Of a stretch of 42,218 nt of DNA, positions 10,491-19,663 are shown one piece after another. The DNA lies in NCBI GenBank assembly GCA_030018475.1, contig JASEFT010000003.1, positions 14,710 to 56,927 of the forward strand, read 5' to 3'. Below the pieces are notes generated by a model. The model ran no database searches. It was not told the DNA's origin and saw nothing but the letters and a program-made list of their open reading frames with translations. Position numbers and translations under genes: made by a program. The stretch is from Candidatus Thermoplasmatota archaeon. GTDB lineage: Archaea; Thermoplasmatota; JASEFT01. How positions within the stretch are numbered: position 1 is the stretch's first letter; each line of letters opens with the position of its first letter.

Positions 10491-11704
10491 CCAAAAACAA
10501 TAATTACAAAAACATTTAGCGAGCCCATGAATCAAGCTTCCGTAGAAGCTAACTTTAAAGTATACCAAGATTGTATGCCTAGCCCTATCGCAGGCTCCTA
10601 CTCATCGTTCTGGAAATCAGTGCATATTCACGCCATCTTCACCACTCACAGCCGAGACTAAATACTGGAGCAATTTATCTACCGATGCAAAAGATGTAGC
10701 TGGAAATAATCTAGAATCTGCAAACAATACTTGGTTTATTACAGGTGTTGCTCTCGGTAATATAAAAGTGAGCAGCGTTACCGCTGGTGACCAAACCTCA
10801 GCTGATATCGCCATCGGTACCGATTATATTTTATATGTAGTCTGGCGCGATGACGGAGGTATTAAATTTTCTAAATCTGCAGATGTAGGAGCAACTTGGT
10901 CTAGTGAAGTTACTGTAGTATCAGGTTCAGGTCTAGTCAGACCTGCAATTGCAGTTAACGGGACAGGTGCTCAAGCTTACGTGCATGTAGTCTACGAAGC
11001 AGATGCTGCTAACGACATTTATTACGTTAGGTCAACAAACGGCGGCTCTGCATGGGACACACCTATAGCTCTAGATACAGCTGCAGAATATCCTAACATA
11101 GCAGTCAGCAGTAACGGCGACCTTGTTATCGTTACATATTCTGAAACAACGTATAGAGATTTAGAGTACCGTCGCTCTACAGATGGAGGCTCTACATGGC
11201 TTGCAGAAGGAGATATAACTACAACTTATGATAACTATTGGTCCAGTATTGCAATTTACGGAAGTCTCTGGTACAAATAGAGACATTTACTTTAGGAAAG
11301 CCACCGCTATCGATGGTAGTGTATGGGCTACTGCAGTTGCTCTAAGAACTGCAACTACTGACGATAGAGAGCCCTGCATTGCAGTTAGTGGCGAAATTAA
11401 TATACACGTAGCATGGTACGATAATAGAAGAGGTACTTGTTACAGCATTTACTATAACTACTCTACAGACGGCGGCATAACATGGCAGTTGAGTGATATT
11501 AGGATAGATGACGATAATGCGAGTGGAGACCATAAAGTACCTGCGATGGTCTACGATGCTTTAAACAACGTTGCTTGCATTGTATGGCATGATAATAGAA
11601 CTGGTGACTACGATATTTATTATTATGCCAGACCGTTAAGCAAGGCTCTGCTTAATGATAATTTGAGCTTTTGTGAAAACAGCTGCAACGCTGTAAGAGT
11701 CTAG
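10491..11704 (+). pseudogene. Decayed secreted protein: Ig-like (Big_5) domain plus Asp-box repeats, frameshifted
   Basis: Three reading-frame blocks read as one ancestral protein. Frame 3 from 10491 gives TFSEPMNQASVEANF, the start of a SbsA-type Ig-like (Big_5) domain. Around 10600-10620 the sense continues in frame 1 (GNQCIFTPSSPLTAE, then DVAGNN). It runs through Asp-box/sialidase-like repeats with STNGGSAW and STDGGSTW to about 11263. There it moves to frame 2 (SGTNRDIYFRK, YSTDGGITW) until the TAG at 11702. No start codon or signal peptide precedes it, so the 5' end is also lost. I read this as a truncated pseudogene with two frameshifts. The frameshifts alone could be sequencing or assembly errors, but the missing N-terminus could not. 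Confidence 0.75.
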
Positions 11705-14055: not shown

Positions 14056-14532
14056 CTACTCTTTTATTCCTCTAAGCTCGTTATAAGTTTTTGTTAACGT
14101 TATATTCTCAGTAATTGATTTTATTTCGCTAGCATCCAATCTTAATCTTCGTTCTAAAGGCTTGATATAAATTAAAATTTTATCTATTTTCCAAGGCGAG
14201 AATTGAGTAGCAATTACTAAATCGTAAATTTTACCTGCATCTTTTCCGTCGCTGCTAAGTACTTTTTTCTTCATGAGTTCGCAGCAAGGCATATGCACTA
14301 AGCTGACTTCACCAATAGCGCTTCCCTTGCCTTCTAAAACAATTCTCTTCTTTGCTTCTTCTAGATTTTTTATTGCTGCAAATTTGTATTCCTGCGGCTT
14401 TCTCAGTGCTTTCTTCAAAATTATATTTTCTACAGTCCATGTTTTGGTGTTCATTACAGAGCAGTGCACTTTACCAAGTTTATCGCCTAAAGCTGTGAAT
14501 CCACTATAGCCTTTCAGTTCTGATAGCAACAT
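14056..14532 (-). CDS. PRC-barrel-like protein, last gene of the small-protein operon
   Basis: 158 residues with two PRC-barrel-like halves. The first opens MLLSELKGYSGF and the second is near residues 87-150 (KKKVLSSDGKDAGKIYDL, then a KIDKILIYI strand). PRC-barrel proteins act as adaptors in ribosome maturation, photosynthesis and, in haloarchaea, cell division; which applies here is not shown. AGGTGAT lies 6 nt upstream of the ATG at 14530-14532. It is the sixth gene of the minus-strand operon starting at 16275, so it may be the soluble partner of the coiled-coil and membrane-anchored proteins encoded ahead of it. Confidence 0.7.
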   Translation of the reverse strand: MLLSELKGYSGFTALGDKLGKVHCSVMNTKTWTVENIILKKALRKPQEYKFAAIKNLEEAKKRIVLEGKGSAIGEVSLVHMPCCELMKKKVLSSDGKDAGKIYDLVIATQFSPWKIDKILIYIKPLERRLRLDASEIKSITENITLTKTYNELRGIKE

Positions 14533-14542
14533 TTTTTATCAC

Positions 14543-14875
14543 CTATTTAGCCATTTCTAAATATTTACAGTAAGGGCATTCTTTTTCGTAGTTTTTATAC
14601 ATTTTGCATTTGGGACAGAAATCAGAGCCGAATCTATATTTTCTTACAGTACCTTCCTTCGTAAATAATCTCGCTTCAAGTTCCGCCCATTCTCTTTTTT
14701 TAGCAATGCATTTTTTTGTATTGTAAACTTCTTTTCTTAAAGTTTCAAGGTCTAATTCAATATTGATAGCTCTGAGAAATTTTCTTAAATCTTCAAGTCT
14801 CAGCTCCAAATCCTCTTGTGCAAGTACATAGCTGACAAGTGAGCCTTCCAATCTTTTATCTTCAGCTTCTCTCAT
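14543..14875 (-). CDS. Small protein with C-terminal zinc ribbon, unknown function
   Basis: 110 residues. The N-terminal ~75 are charged and helical (LEDLRKFLRAINIELDLETL). The C-terminus holds a zinc ribbon of two CxxC pairs: FCPKCK and CPYCK, 13 residues between the pairs. I do not recognise the family. The ATG at 14873-14875 overlaps the stop of the upstream gene by 4 nt (ATGA), so it is translationally coupled to the coiled-coil protein at 14872-15216. It sits between that gene and the PRC-barrel-like gene. Confidence 0.75.
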   Translation of the reverse strand: MREAEDKRLEGSLVSYVLAQEDLELRLEDLRKFLRAINIELDLETLRKEVYNTKKCIAKKREWAELEARLFTKEGTVRKYRFGSDFCPKCKMYKNYEKECPYCKYLEMAK

Positions 14876-15216
14876 TTTTTCTTTTTAGTTATAACTTCTA
14901 CCCTTCGCTCTAAACCAGTAACTTTTGCATCTATATCTAAGGTAAAATCGTCAAGTAATTTTAGCTTCTCATCCATAGCACTGTATCTTTGTTCGTAAAC
15001 TAGCAAGTCGTTTTTAGTTACTAAATTATATTCTGCAATGTAGTCATCGAAATTCTCATCTAAGTATCTTTCAATTCTAGAATCCCAGAGCCTTCTCCTA
15101 TACGCTACTTCAGGTGCGTGAACTACTTCTTCGCCTATAAAGAATTTTTTTATTCTTTCCCAAACACTTTCACGCCCATACTCTACAGGCACTTCCGCTT
15201 CTGTGCTATATTCCAT
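14872..15216 (-). CDS. Coiled-coil protein, paralog family member 3
   Basis: 114 residues, no membrane helix. The core reads RIERYLDENFDDYIAEYNL then VTKNDL, followed by a heptad-like coil ending LERRVEVI and a lysine tail. The same module occurs in the proteins at 15654-15980 and 15988-16275, so the three are paralogs. Start ATG 15216 is preferred over the in-frame GTG at 15228. GGTGGTGAT, lying in the last codons of the upstream gene, is 4 nt from it. The upstream stop is 1 nt away. Function unknown; shape and context suggest an oligomeric scaffold partner. Confidence 0.75.
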   Translation of the reverse strand: MEYSTEAEVPVEYGRESVWERIKKFFIGEEVVHAPEVAYRRRLWDSRIERYLDENFDDYIAEYNLVTKNDLLVYEQRYSAMDEKLKLLDDFTLDIDAKVTGLERRVEVITKKKK

Positions 15217-15217
15217 T

Positions 15218-15640
15218 TTAATCACCACCTATGTTTCTAAACAACCCTCTTTCATATTTCTTTACTTTATTTAGAGTATCTGTCAGCCTTGCAAGATCAT
15301 GACCTATCTCAAGTCTTTGTGTGCGAGCTTCAATTTCGTTCATTAATCCAACAGTTCTTCGCGACAGTACAGCTGAGTCTGCTTTTGTAGATTCTACCCT
15401 TTCGCGCTCCTCATCACTGAGAATTACAGATGCGTTTTTCAAGCCTTCAAAATAAGCTTTTTTCGACAGAATTTCAAGTTTTTTACCGTCCAAGCCTATT
15501 TCTGCTAATCGTGCAGCCTGCTTTGCACTCTTAACTTTCACTATAGTTCTTCCTATAGCGATTACTAATATTATCATGCCTATGAGTACTGCTAGAAGAA
15601 CAAAATTGGCTGCAATTGCAGCTCCGATTTCACTCAACAT
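15218..15640 (-). CDS. Membrane-anchored coiled-coil protein, unknown function
   Basis: 140 residues. One N-terminal membrane helix (residues ~8-30, AANFVLLAVLIGMIILVIAI) leads to a basic stretch (TIVKVKSAKQAAR) and a long charged helical region that is probably cytoplasmic. That region has SDEERERVESTKADSAVL and IGHDLARLTDTLNKVKKYE. It lacks the YLDE/DL module of its neighbours, so it is a different family. GGGAGAG lies 5 nt upstream of the ATG at 15638-15640. It is the third gene of the six-gene operon and one of two membrane-anchored members. Confidence 0.75.
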   Translation of the reverse strand: MLSEIGAAIAANFVLLAVLIGMIILVIAIGRTIVKVKSAKQAARLAEIGLDGKKLEILSKKAYFEGLKNASVILSDEERERVESTKADSAVLSRRTVGLMNEIEARTQRLEIGHDLARLTDTLNKVKKYERGLFRNIGGD

Positions 15641-15653
15641 TTCTCTCTCCCTT

Positions 15654-15980
15654 TTAAGCTGCTTCTAGTTTATTTAATGTGGATTCTAACTTCTCTAATC
15701 GTGGCTCGAAGCTTGTTCTGAACTTTTTGATTTTTTCTAACCCTTTACCTATAGAATCCAGCTTCTTACCAATTTCTGCACACCACGTTTTAACGTCAGC
15801 TCTTGACTGCAAATCCCATTCTTTAACTATATCTTTGAAATGCTCATCGAAATACAACTCGACATGACTGGGTACAGGTACTATTGCTTTCTTTATTCGC
15901 CACATAGCCCAGAGCCAAATCGCAATCGCAATAAGAAGCACTATTGCAAACAAGAACCCATACAAGAATTCAACATCCAT
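15654..15980 (-). CDS. Membrane-anchored coiled-coil protein, paralog family member 2
   Basis: 108 residues. An N-terminal membrane helix (~5-27, YGFLFAIVLLIAIAIWLWAM) is followed by basic WRIKKA. Then comes the shared module HVELYFDEHFKDIVKEWDL, SRADV and a coiled coil ending LEKLESTLNKLEAA. It is the membrane-bound version of the soluble paralogs at 15988-16275 and 14872-15216. Start ATG 15980 is preferred to TTG 15986: GGGTGA is 7 nt upstream of it. Function unknown. Confidence 0.75.
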   Translation of the reverse strand: MDVEFLYGFLFAIVLLIAIAIWLWAMWRIKKAIVPVPSHVELYFDEHFKDIVKEWDLQSRADVKTWCAEIGKKLDSIGKGLEKIKKFRTSFEPRLEKLESTLNKLEAA

Positions 15981-15987
15981 TTTCAAT

Positions 15988-16275
15988 TCACCCTTTCACT
16001 CCATATTTAATCTCCGCCCTTTCTACCCTTTTTTCAATATTATCAACGCGTTTTATAGTTTCTGATTTCCAACTGTCAATCTCCGAAATCTCTGTTTCAT
16101 AGCCTACAAATCTTTTGTCTATATCCTCAAGGTCGCGCTTAGTCGCTAGTTTGTACTCGTCCATAAGCTCGGGTAAGCGCTCGCTTAAGTAGATATCTAC
16201 TTTTTTAGATATTGCTACAGGGTGGGCTCTTAAACCTGCTTTCGCACGCTCTATAATACCTTTGCCTTTTACCAT
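15988..16275 (-). CDS. Coiled-coil protein, paralog family member 1, first gene of the operon
   Basis: 95 residues, soluble. A basic N-terminus (GIIERAKAGLRAHPVAIS) precedes the shared module KKVDIYLSERLPELMDEYKL, ATKRDLEDIDKR, and a coil with IKRVDNIEKRVERAEI. The pattern Y-L/F-D/S-E ... E-Y/W-x-L ... DL is common to the three paralogs in this operon. It is the promoter-proximal gene, with a TATA box at 16309-16322 and a short leader containing GGGG. It ends 8 nt before the next start. Function unknown. Confidence 0.75.
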   Translation of the reverse strand: MVKGKGIIERAKAGLRAHPVAISKKVDIYLSERLPELMDEYKLATKRDLEDIDKRFVGYETEISEIDSWKSETIKRVDNIEKRVERAEIKYGVKG

Positions 16276-16308: not shown

Positions 16309-16322
16309 TGTGATATATAATT
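16309..16322 (-). promoter_or_regulatory. TATA box of the six-gene small-protein operon
   Basis: On the minus strand AATTATATATCACA is centred about 40 nt upstream of the ATG at 16275, predicting a ~15-nt leader that holds GCGGGGTTGG. It separates this operon from the ATPase genes upstream. Confidence 0.5.
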
Positions 16323-16333
16323 TTCGTTAAAAT

Positions 16334-16681
16334 CTAAAACAGCCCGAAATCTAACTTTTTGATGCTATCGTAAACTTCGTAAAAATCGAATTTTTCATCT
16401 AATCTCAGACTTCCTGATTCTATGTATTTCTCTAGCTCTGAGATGACTTCTTGCTCAGTTATAAGTTTAGGATTTCTAGCGCTTGCAATAACAGCAAAAA
16501 TTTTGTTTTCATCAAAGCTATCGAGCTCTAGAGCTACACGATCTTTGATAGTCTTCTTTTCGTTATAAATTAAGCCAAGTGTGCAAGCCACTTCTACAGC
16601 TTCTTCTTTACTACTAAGAATACCTTTTTCGAGTAGTCGCGATATTTTCGAATTAAAATTTTTACTTATTAAGATATGCAT
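16334..16681 (-). CDS. Small partner of the DndD-like ATPase, resembles dnd-system-associated protein
   Basis: From ATG 16681 it has 115 residues; an upstream in-frame start at 16726 would add 15 residues and overlap the ATPase gene by 58 nt instead of 13. The layout is SKNFNSKISRLLEKGILSSK, then EEAVEVACTLGL, a charged linker, and ELEKYIESGSLRL near the end. From memory this recalls small proteins annotated as dnd-system-associated (FKSK...FAAALG ... EYANGGL). The resemblance is weak and unverified. The gene follows the ATPase with overlapping frames, so the two are probably made together. A ribosome binding site is not obvious. Confidence 0.55.
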   Translation of the reverse strand: MHILISKNFNSKISRLLEKGILSSKEEAVEVACTLGLIYNEKKTIKDRVALELDSFDENKIFAVIASARNPKLITEQEVISELEKYIESGSLRLDEKFDFYEVYDSIKKLDFGLF

Positions 16682-18357
16682 TTTATTCTCGAGCTCCTTA
16701 TAGTCTCGTTGTGAACTAACTCCCAAGAGCTATCTGCAAATTCTTTTATATCTTTATAATCTTCATCTGTAACTAAAATTATTAGCTGATTGGCTAATTT
16801 TTGTAAGTTTGCAATTAAGTTCTTTTTGTGAATGCTATCAAGTCTTGTAAAAGGCGCATCTATAACAAGGAACTCGTTACTAAGCCCTGCAATTAGTGAC
16901 AGTCCTACTATTTGTAGCTCTCCATCTGAGAGTCTTTCCAAAGCGCTTCCTAACATTTCTAGTTTTCCAGTACTATCTAATGCTATTCCTTCATATTCCG
17001 CAGGCTTGTTTGTAAGTCGCTTTAGGGTATGAGATGCCCTCTCAGTCATAGCTGCACTTTCTTCTCTGCTTTTGCATTCTATAATTTCGTCAAATGCGCA
17101 TATCAAATTTTCTAATTTTCTAATTTTCAGCAAGATATTTTTCCTGCTCCTAGACTTGAATTTTCTAATCTTTTTCGCTACATTCTTATACTCTTCTTCA
17201 AGTTCTATCACTCTAAGCTCTCTTGCCTTCCTCTCTAATTTAAGCTCTTCGAGCTTTTTAGTCAAATCAGCAAAATTTAAATTCCTAGCTTTAGGAATAG
17301 CATGTAAAAGCTCTTTTCGCTCTTTTTTTAACTCTTCTACATTAATTTTCAAGTTTCTTGTTTTTTCAGCTGCTGAATTCAGTTCATAGCTACTTTGTGC
17401 ATATCCTTCAAGTGGTAGACTTGCAAAAAGCTCCTCTTCCTTTCTTAACCTGCTCGCTAAACTAGCTATTTCACGCTTGCCGAAATGCGAAGTTGATAGT
17501 TTGCTACCGCATATACATTTTTCTTCAGCCAATATTTTCTCTAAAAGTTCTCTTTCCGCAGATAATCGACCTTGCTTTAAACGCGCTTTTATAGCTTCGT
17601 CTTTCCTTTTTAAAATTACTTTCACAGCCTCCTCTAAAAGAGTTTTTAAAATAAGCGCCTGAAAATTTTGCCTAAACTCCTTTTCCTTCTCTAAAAACTC
17701 TTTCGCTCTGCTTAACGTTTCTAACTCATCGATTTTAGAGCTCAAAATCTTTATTTTTTTGTTTTCTTCCGTTACTAATTTCTCTAGCTTACGAGCTTCT
17801 AATCTATTAACTTCGAGTCCAAGCGCTTTCTTAACTACTAACTTCATTTTTTCAAACTTGCTTAGCGAGCGTTCTAATTTGGATTTTAAGAGTTCTAAAT
17901 CATTTTTAGCATCTTTAAGTTCTTTTATGCCCCAGATCTCTTCAAAACTAAGTCCGCCAATAACTCGCGCAAATTTTTCGCAGTCCATTATTGAGAACTT
18001 GGCTATACTCTCAGGAATTATATTTTCAATTTTTAGCAAGCTTTTAGAGCCGTTAACTTTTAATGTAAAATCTTCTTTTCCATTTACTATTTTACGCTCT
18101 GCTCTGTAACTATTACCGTCATGCTCGAATTCTAAATTTACTCTACAAAAACTCTCGTTTCTTTGAGTTGCATATTCGTTTATAACCTTGCCAGAAGCTT
18201 TTCCATAGAGCGCGAACAATATACTTTCAACTAAGGTTGATTTACCATACCCATTCATACCTTCAATAACAAAAATCTTTTTATTACCATCGAATCTGAG
18301 TACGTTATTGCCGTAGAATATTTTGTAGTTTTCTAACTCAAGTTCTTTAAGAATCAT
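16669..18357 (-). CDS. SMC/RecF-type AAA ATPase, DndD-like
   Basis: 562 residues with the layout of an SMC-like DNA-repair or defence ATPase. Walker A is GMNGYGKST (33-41). A long charged coiled-coil region runs ~150-430, broken by CICG at 281-284 where Rad50 has its CxxC hook. The ABC signature is LSDGELQ (476-482). Walker B is FLVIDAPFTRLD (496-507), followed by a switch-like TDED (near 531). The VIDxPxxRLD form and CICG are typical of DndD, the ATPase of DNA phosphorothioation systems, as opposed to Rad50. No dndB or dndC lies nearby, so this is not a standard dnd cluster. The start overlaps the end of the 42-codon gene upstream, and the 3' end overlaps the small partner gene. Confidence 0.8.
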   Translation of the reverse strand: MILKELELENYKIFYGNNVLRFDGNKKIFVIEGMNGYGKSTLVESILFALYGKASGKVINEYATQRNESFCRVNLEFEHDGNSYRAERKIVNGKEDFTLKVNGSKSLLKIENIIPESIAKFSIMDCEKFARVIGGLSFEEIWGIKELKDAKNDLELLKSKLERSLSKFEKMKLVVKKALGLEVNRLEARKLEKLVTEENKKIKILSSKIDELETLSRAKEFLEKEKEFRQNFQALILKTLLEEAVKVILKRKDEAIKARLKQGRLSAERELLEKILAEEKCICGSKLSTSHFGKREIASLASRLRKEEELFASLPLEGYAQSSYELNSAAEKTRNLKINVEELKKERKELLHAIPKARNLNFADLTKKLEELKLERKARELRVIELEEEYKNVAKKIRKFKSRSRKNILLKIRKLENLICAFDEIIECKSREESAAMTERASHTLKRLTNKPAEYEGIALDSTGKLEMLGSALERLSDGELQIVGLSLIAGLSNEFLVIDAPFTRLDSIHKKNLIANLQKLANQLIILVTDEDYKDIKEFADSSWELVHNETIRSSRIKCIS

Positions 18358-18560: not shown

Positions 18561-18932
18561 ATGAAAGCAAGGGAACAAAAACTTTACGATTTTGTAATAA
18601 GTAAAATTACTAAAATTCGAGAGCAGGGTGAAGCGCCAAAATCAGATATTCTTTCTTTAGATAATTTTGTATGCGATTTGTGTAAAGGAGTAATACAAAG
18701 AGCTAAAATTACTCAATGCCCTTTCTGCGGTAGATGGATTTGCAGAGCGCAGTGCTGGGATAGTAAAGAGCGAGGTTGTCTTGCATGCTCTGGGGTAATA
18801 AAATTATGTAGGGAGAGTGTGAAGCCGGGAAAAGCTATAAAAACGGCAGAGCCTGAAGTCAGGAAAGGAAAAGGCAGAAAGCTTGTTAAGCTCAAAGGAA
18901 TTGTTAAAAAGGTCAGATGGAAGAAGAAATAG
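18561..18932 (+). CDS. Zinc-finger protein with basic C-terminal tail
   Basis: 123 residues. The centre holds a multi-cysteine zinc-binding fold: CDLC (~37-40), CPFC (~53-56), GRWIC, AQCW and GCLAC, arranged like a treble-clef/AN1- or LIM-type finger able to bind two zinc ions. The last ~35 residues are lysine/arginine rich (VRKGKGRKLVKLKG), which may bind nucleic acid. I cannot name the family. It is divergent from the ATPase operon and overlaps the next gene by 16 nt. Confidence 0.75.
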   Translation: MKAREQKLYDFVISKITKIREQGEAPKSDILSLDNFVCDLCKGVIQRAKITQCPFCGRWICRAQCWDSKERGCLACSGVIKLCRESVKPGKAIKTAEPEVRKGKGRKLVKLKGIVKKVRWKKK

Positions 18933-19210
18933 CTCTAGAAGAGATTTATAAAGCTTTTAGATGGGATGAAAGACTGAAAGAGTTAGAGCGAACTAAACAA
19001 AAAATATCTGGGGAATGGCAATTTAGAATTGTCAGAGGATGCTTGATCGCATTTTCATCTTACTTAATTTTAGTGCTGATTACTTCGCTTTTAAATGATA
19101 TACTCTACTACGTATCAGACGGTACAAGACAGATAGGCGGATTCGAAATAGGACTCATAGCACCTTGTATATTGCTAGGCTTGGCTTTTATGCTTTTTCC
19201 TGCAAAATAA
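18917..19210 (+). CDS. Small two-helix membrane protein, unknown function
   Basis: 97 residues. A charged N-terminal helix (LEEIYKAFRWDERLKELERTK) is followed by two membrane helices (~46-65, LIAFSSYLILVLITSLL; ~77-95, IGLIAPCILLGLAFMLF). I do not recognise the family. Its start lies inside the 3' end of the zinc-finger gene (16-nt overlap), so the two are probably translated together and might work together at the membrane. It is convergent with the gene at 19220-19603, only 9 nt away. Confidence 0.7.
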   Translation: MEEEIALEEIYKAFRWDERLKELERTKQKISGEWQFRIVRGCLIAFSSYLILVLITSLLNDILYYVSDGTRQIGGFEIGLIAPCILLGLAFMLFPAK

Positions 19211-19233
19211 AAAAAGAAATTATTTTTTCTTCT
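19205..19233. terminator. Possible bidirectional terminator between convergent genes
   Basis: An A-run followed by ATTATTTTTT gives U-rich transcript ends on both strands between two convergent stops 9 nt apart. The plus-strand T-run falls inside the lysine codons of the opposing gene. Confidence 0.3.
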
Positions 19234-19603
19234 TAGCTATTTTCTTCAGCTTCTTTTTTGCTTTCTCTACTCTTTTCTTTACCCTCTCTTTTATTTTCTT
19301 TACTCTTACCTTTGCCTTCTCAACCCTTTTCTTTATAATCTCTTTTGCAGGTATTACCCTCGTTACAGTTAGATCTTCGCCTTCAGCAGCGCCTAATTTC
19401 ATTAAATCATCTCCCCTAATCGAAATTTCGTTTTTTGCTATAAGCTTGTCGGCAACTGCTTTTAAATATAGGAATTTATCGCCTTTGCGCACCTCTATGC
19501 TATCACGGGCTTTGACTCCAAGCTTTTTTGCAATCTCTGTATTTATTCTTGCAATACCGCTACCTTTAACTGCGCTCTTTTTTGCTTTCAAAACTTCCGC
19601 CAT
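19220..19603 (-). CDS. AbrB/Cdc48-N-like barrel with lysine-rich histone-H1-like tail
   Basis: From ATG 19603 it has 127 residues. The N-terminal ~75 look like a small beta-barrel of double-psi/AbrB type: GSGIARINTEIAKKLGV, DSIEVRKGD, ISIRGDDLMKLGA. The rest is a highly basic tail of repeated KKRVEKAK, RVKKIKERVKK and KKLKKIAKKKK units, much like a histone H1 tail. DNA or chromatin binding is a reasonable inference; no function is proven. The ATG is preferred because GGTGA (19612-19616) lies 8 nt upstream. GTG at 19615 is an alternative if the message is leaderless, since a TATA-like ACTTTTAAATTC lies at 19639-19650. Confidence 0.7.
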   Translation of the reverse strand: MAEVLKAKKSAVKGSGIARINTEIAKKLGVKARDSIEVRKGDKFLYLKAVADKLIAKNEISIRGDDLMKLGAAEGEDLTVTRVIPAKEIIKKRVEKAKVRVKKIKERVKKRVEKAKKKLKKIAKKKK

Positions 19604-19663
19604 TTTTTCACTCACCGAATAGAAGTAGGATTTAAGAGAATTTAAAAGTTTCTATGAAAATCA

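Follow-up and report, generated by a model that had tools for sequence, protein, structure and literature searches.

A nine-gene set conserved across three classes of Thermoplasmatota, encoding a tandem PRC barrel and candidate components of a membrane scaffold

The locus analysed here raises the question of what a series of small and tightly packed genes encodes, and whether their products belong together. Within the window, that is, the whole stretch of 42,218 nucleotides from a Candidatus Thermoplasmatota archaeon, six open reading frames of 95-158 codons each are present on the minus strand at positions 14056-16275, as described in the first-pass annotation, and they are transcribed in the order p6-p5-p4-p3-p2-p1. 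These six genes turned out to be real, but the range given for them left out part of the set, which also includes z9, tm10 and dpBB at 18561-19615; a RING-like, a small transmembrane and a Cdc48-N-like member had thus been missed. The features referred to below are the following.

14056..14532, minus strand: p1, tandem (double) PRC barrel of about 158 aa (Pfam, AlphaFold and PDB match)
14543..14875, minus strand: p2, three-helix N-terminal region and C-terminal four-Cys zinc ribbon
14872..15228, minus strand: p3, soluble coiled-coil paralog, probable start at ATG 15216
15218..15640, minus strand: p4, N-terminal membrane helix and long helical cytosolic domain of no known family
15654..15986, minus strand: p5, N-terminal membrane helix and the same coiled-coil module as p6, about 108-110 aa
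15988..16275, minus strand: p6, soluble coiled-coil paralog of 95 aa with the core YLSE..LP..MDEYKLA (open reading frame, profile comparison)
16312..16326, minus strand: BRE/TATA-like element of archaeal type, CGAAAATTATATATC, 36 nt before the first ATG (p6)
16334..18357, minus strand: PbeC/DndD-like SMC-type ATPase gene and a small overlapping gene, between p6 and z9, outside the conserved set
18561..18932, plus strand: z9, Prok-RING_2 (PF14445) protein in which eight Cys are invariant, part of the conserved set
18917..19210, plus strand: tm10, small membrane protein paired with z9, with an E R L motif before its helix
19220..19615, minus strand: dpBB, Cdc48-N-like double-psi beta-barrel protein

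The spacing from p6 to p1 is, junction by junction, +1, +13, -11, -4 and +10 nt. The start of p3 is more likely the ATG at 15216, just after GGTGGTGAT, and with this start the -11 overlap between p4 and p3 becomes about +1. The TATA box that had been proposed ahead of the operon corresponds to the BRE/TATA element listed above. For these genes, dN/dS between close relatives of family f11 ranges from 0.07 to 0.20, which argues that p1 to p6 are real genes.

Three of the six proteins had been described as paralogs in which a shared module is followed by a coiled coil, and profile comparison bears this out. The hhalign probabilities were 95.7% for p3/p6, 93.5% for p5/p6 and 92.4% for p3/p5, versus 39% at most when the paralog profiles were compared with p4 and p2 as controls. 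The region common to p3, p5 and p6 includes a non-repetitive segment, YLDE..F..YI.EY.L.T..D, which precedes the coiled coil, and therefore the signal does not reflect heptad composition only; at the level of sequence, these data support a common descent of the three proteins. The PDB matches of the paralogs were generic coiled-coil ones. Single N-terminal membrane helices, expected in one paralog and in one unrelated protein, were found in p5 (KD19 of 2.76) and p4 (KD19 of 2.97), respectively; p4 is present in duplicate in f11 and in the f26 genome, G041. The zinc-ribbon protein of the operon is p2, whose four ribbon cysteines are invariant. Its AlphaFold model consists of three helices and a poorly defined ribbon, with no PDB fold match at E below 3, and on these grounds a winged helix was rejected. 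In G041 (L050 7403-7951), the N terminus of p2 is extended by a fusion with two hydrophobic segments, in support of a membrane location of this protein.

Turning to the three additional members, PF14445 matched all eight z9 proteins, and the 13 matches to Prok-RING_2 found across the phylum at E of 1.5e-7 or better all come from carriers of the set. Small membrane proteins like tm10 come after z9 in G001, G002, G029, G041 and G366, and in f54 an additional membrane protein of 67-74 aa comes after p1. Cdc48_N (PF02359), the N-terminal double-psi barrel of Cdc48/VAT, matched ten out of ten dpBB members (best E 4e-7), and dpBB also matches Cdc48 barrels of solved structure, as well as designs based on this fold. 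Unlike its Cdc48/VAT counterpart, however, dpBB stands alone, without an ATPase domain. The gene immediately precedes p6 in f11 and in the second copies present in f54, whereas most f54 operons have it after p1.

Since RING-like z9 and Cdc48_N-like dpBB are both constant members of the set, a membrane-bound adaptor for quality control or degradation has to be considered, in which these two proteins would select clients at the membrane for transfer to Cdc48 or the proteasome, and the coiled coils and the PRC barrel would serve as a platform. We regard this as unlikely. Unlike what would be expected around a RING E3 of a ubiquitin-like pathway, ubiquitin-pathway genes were not seen near z9, and the loci inspected showed neither E1, E2 or a ubiquitin-like protein nor an AAA ATPase or a protease; prokaryotic RING-like fingers often work outside ubiquitin pathways. 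Moreover, dpBB of the window scores 22.7 bits against Cdc48_N, under the curated cut-off of 35.1, and its fold also occurs in AbrB/MazE-type and other proteins.

The distribution of these genes speaks to whether they form one unit. All carriers are Thermoplasmatota, of three classes and mostly uncultivated, and their proteins are usually 22-45% identical. The order p6-p5-p4-p3-p2-p1 is identical in the family of the window, in a sister family of the same order (G001) and in 13 f54 genomes, which belong to another class; in a fourteenth f54 carrier (G434) the operon is interrupted by a contig end. In the third class, that of f11 and f26, the set takes a rearranged form, dpBB-p6-p5-p3-p1 plus p4-p2-z9-tm10, where the second segment reads p4-p2-(p4')-z9. 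All nine genes are contiguous in one f11 genome (G029), and in G041 p1 and dpBB are placed first in the block. Gene order, for which conservation limited to close relatives had been named as a refutation, is thus conserved far outside them, across three classes.

Among the 97 relatives searched, p1 was found in 12 and p4 in 10, and all ten p4 genomes lie within the p1 twelve (hypergeometric 5e-12, uncorrected for relatedness). A sample of 390 genomes of the phylum contained 14 with p3. Within the class of G362, 14 f54 genomes with the set were retrieved, and within the class of G021 nine out of 12, namely, all eight f11 genomes and the one f26 genome; each of the three genomes of the order to which the window belongs also has the set or at least some of it. 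Its presence throughout f11, in the 14 sampled f54 genomes and in the order of the window suggests that it is probably part of core cell biology in these lineages, and current annotation leaves these probable core genes blank. Several of the genomes compared are fragmented MAGs. In G011, a MAG in about 590 contigs, p4 and z9 were not detected, which may be due to incompleteness. A scan of contigs with a z9 pattern, which missed f54 and f26, returned Thermoplasmatota only, plus one weak match in Aenigmatarchaeota; those matches that have names come from MAGs designated as Thermoplasmatales, Candidatus Thermoplasmatota or Euryarchaeota. In a concatenated tree, f1/f2, f54 and f11/f26 fall apart into the three groups that mainly vertical descent would give.

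Parts of the set also duplicate together. The block dpBB-p6-p5-p3-p1 occurs as a whole in two copies in f11 (G021, G035 and G075), where second copies sometimes end at contig ends, and second copies in f54 carry dpBB-p6-p5-p4-p3 or dpBB-p6 (L083, L162). Such joint duplication suggests that the products probably act in a constant ratio. The early suggestion of a membrane-associated multi-protein assembly is thus strengthened by the membrane anchors, the co-duplicated paralogs, an all-or-none co-occurrence and an order kept in three classes. No description of this gene set was found in a literature search that was mostly outside subscription journals; nine orphan genes become one defined and testable proposed complex, conserved over deep archaeal divergence.

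The SMC-type ATPase gene and its small partner, which separate p6 from z9, lie inside the set in the window genome only, among the related loci searched. At the equivalent site of the related genome G001, the divergent genes are separated by less than 100 bp of intergenic sequence and nothing else (L018 8607-8982). The ATPase gene matches PbeC in PADLOC (E 1.7e-33), and the pair is a lineage-specific insertion, perhaps a defence remnant. Its absence from the related loci searched led us to reject the DndD/PbeC-like gene as a member of the set. Anti-phage defence as a role for the set was also rejected, as the inserted ATPase alone matches, PADLOC giving no convincing match for the six genes, z9 or dpBB.

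The PRC-barrel-like protein recognized in the operon is p1, which scores above the cut-off of Pfam PRC (24.6 versus 21.2 bits), and PF05239 was found in 13 out of 13 members of its family. The AlphaFold model of p1 (pLDDT 92) contains two PRC barrels in one chain. The best PDB fold matches of this model are the four chains of 8qzo, CdpB1-CdpB2 from Archaeoglobus fulgidus, with E from 3e-9 to 9e-9 and TM of 0.62-0.71, the next different structure being found at E 2.7e-3; a profile search by sequence again placed 8qzo first (1.5e-5). The two share 15% identity, with an rmsd of 5-11 Å, and the match may reflect merely the occurrence of two PRC barrels in tandem. PRC barrels are also known from proteins unrelated to division.

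PRC proteins have been tied to archaeal division only recently. In Haloferax, the Z-ring is anchored by SepF, and the divisome is stabilised by the PRC-barrel proteins CdpB1 and CdpB2 (PMC12186497; also PMC11188069; the work on CdpB1-CdpB2 is that of Nussbaum 2024 and Zhao 2024, as cited in PMC12186497). As in CdpB1-CdpB2, two PRC barrels would act together in p1, in archaea that have FtsZ and SepF. However, CdpB1-CdpB2 are two single-barrel proteins that pair, whereas p1 holds both barrels in one chain, is encoded with eight unrelated partners and coexists with single-domain PRC proteins encoded elsewhere in the genome. FtsZ and single-domain PRC proteins were both detected in all 14 carriers tested, and SepF in 13 of them, the exception being one fragmented MAG. 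A replacement divisome was accordingly rejected, and the set can be at most a division accessory; it must be dispensable for division in general, since non-carriers too divide with FtsZ. Among the loci inspected, no division gene was a neighbour common to several classes. The idea of a division or envelope scaffold, put forward from the beginning as one hypothesis among several, is strengthened by the resemblance of p1 to CdpB1-CdpB2, but in the reduced sense of an accessory. CdvA, which joins a PRC barrel to a coiled coil in ESCRT-type division (PMC11188069), also combines these elements at the membrane, as predicted here; in the present set, in contrast, the barrels number two and are encoded apart from the coiled coils. 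Neither ESCRT-III nor Vps4 genes were recognised in the loci inspected.

We tentatively favour a membrane-tethered cytosolic scaffold, accessory to the FtsZ-SepF-CdpB divisome or to the organisation of the cell envelope. Whereas the gene set and its order, the homologies, the single-domain folds, selection and co-occurrence are observed, we infer complex formation, stoichiometry, location and role as follows. p3, p5 and p6 would assemble into a heteromeric coiled coil, probably 1:1:1, held to the membrane by the helix of p5. p4, anchored in the membrane too, would bring the zinc-ribbon protein p2. p1, as a single-chain tandem barrel shaped like the CdpB1-CdpB2 dimer, could be the adaptor through which the scaffold contacts further proteins of the envelope or of division, and dpBB and z9 may provide additional peptide-binding adaptors. 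The whole would sit on the cytosolic side of the membrane and assist the existing machinery without replacing it. A tandem PRC barrel resembling CdpB1-CdpB2 would thereby be linked to new membrane partners. It is also conceivable, and in our view somewhat doubtful, that the tethered three-paralog coiled coil and its PRC, RING-like and Cdc48-N-like adaptors form an undescribed cytoskeletal or membrane-coat machine, standard in three classes of Thermoplasmatota and with a function apart from those of the divisome, ESCRT and archaellum systems known so far.

An operon that combines small coiled-coil proteins and membrane helices also recalls archaellum or chemotaxis accessories like ArlC/D/E, an assignment that had been flagged as an alternative and that we consider highly improbable. 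No archaellum gene was found nearby, no archaellum accessory Pfam family appears among the best 25 of 37 families listed for 24 paralogs, and no archaellin was found in the f1/f2 and f54 carriers tested, namely, G000 (95.5% completeness), G001, G002, G362 and G366. An archaellum accessory was rejected because carriers of two of the three classes lack archaellins; for the window genome, this reading is refuted unless an archaellin gene lies in the missing 5%.

The neighbourhoods of the set provided further observations. In eight f54 loci (L156, L157, L158, L159, L161, L163, L164 and L165) the operon is divergent from a gene for a very large surface protein, with a length of 800-1800 aa or more; archaeal Pilin_N and CARDB domains were present in both of those scanned, one of them with a weak VWA match as well. 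In f11 (L023, L025, L026, L029, L030 and L084), dpBB-p6-p5-p3-p1 is divergent from a gene for a secreted protein of about 860-890 aa, and PKD and cadherin-like domains were found in the three scanned. The adjacency of such genes, in several f54 genera and next to the f11 block, would fit a platform on which large surface proteins are assembled or displayed, with a cytosolic scaffold that organises the export or anchoring of the exported proteins encoded beside it. This we consider improbable, since the neighbours vary by lineage, other f54 genera lack them, and neither a secretion ATPase nor a channel is part of the set; the adjacency is explained by a chromosome history common to the members of each family. 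In most f54 genomes (L153-L161, L163 and L164), two genes come after the operon, one for a GPN-type GTPase and one for a Cys-rich protein that is conserved and has about 100-135 aa (MCRY.yG...CAHP.N). Elsewhere in the window, two overlapping plus-strand open reading frames in different frames (10768-11280 and 11228-11704) each resemble a portion of the same repeat-rich BNR/sialidase-like protein, which may indicate a frameshift or an assembly error in 10768-11704.
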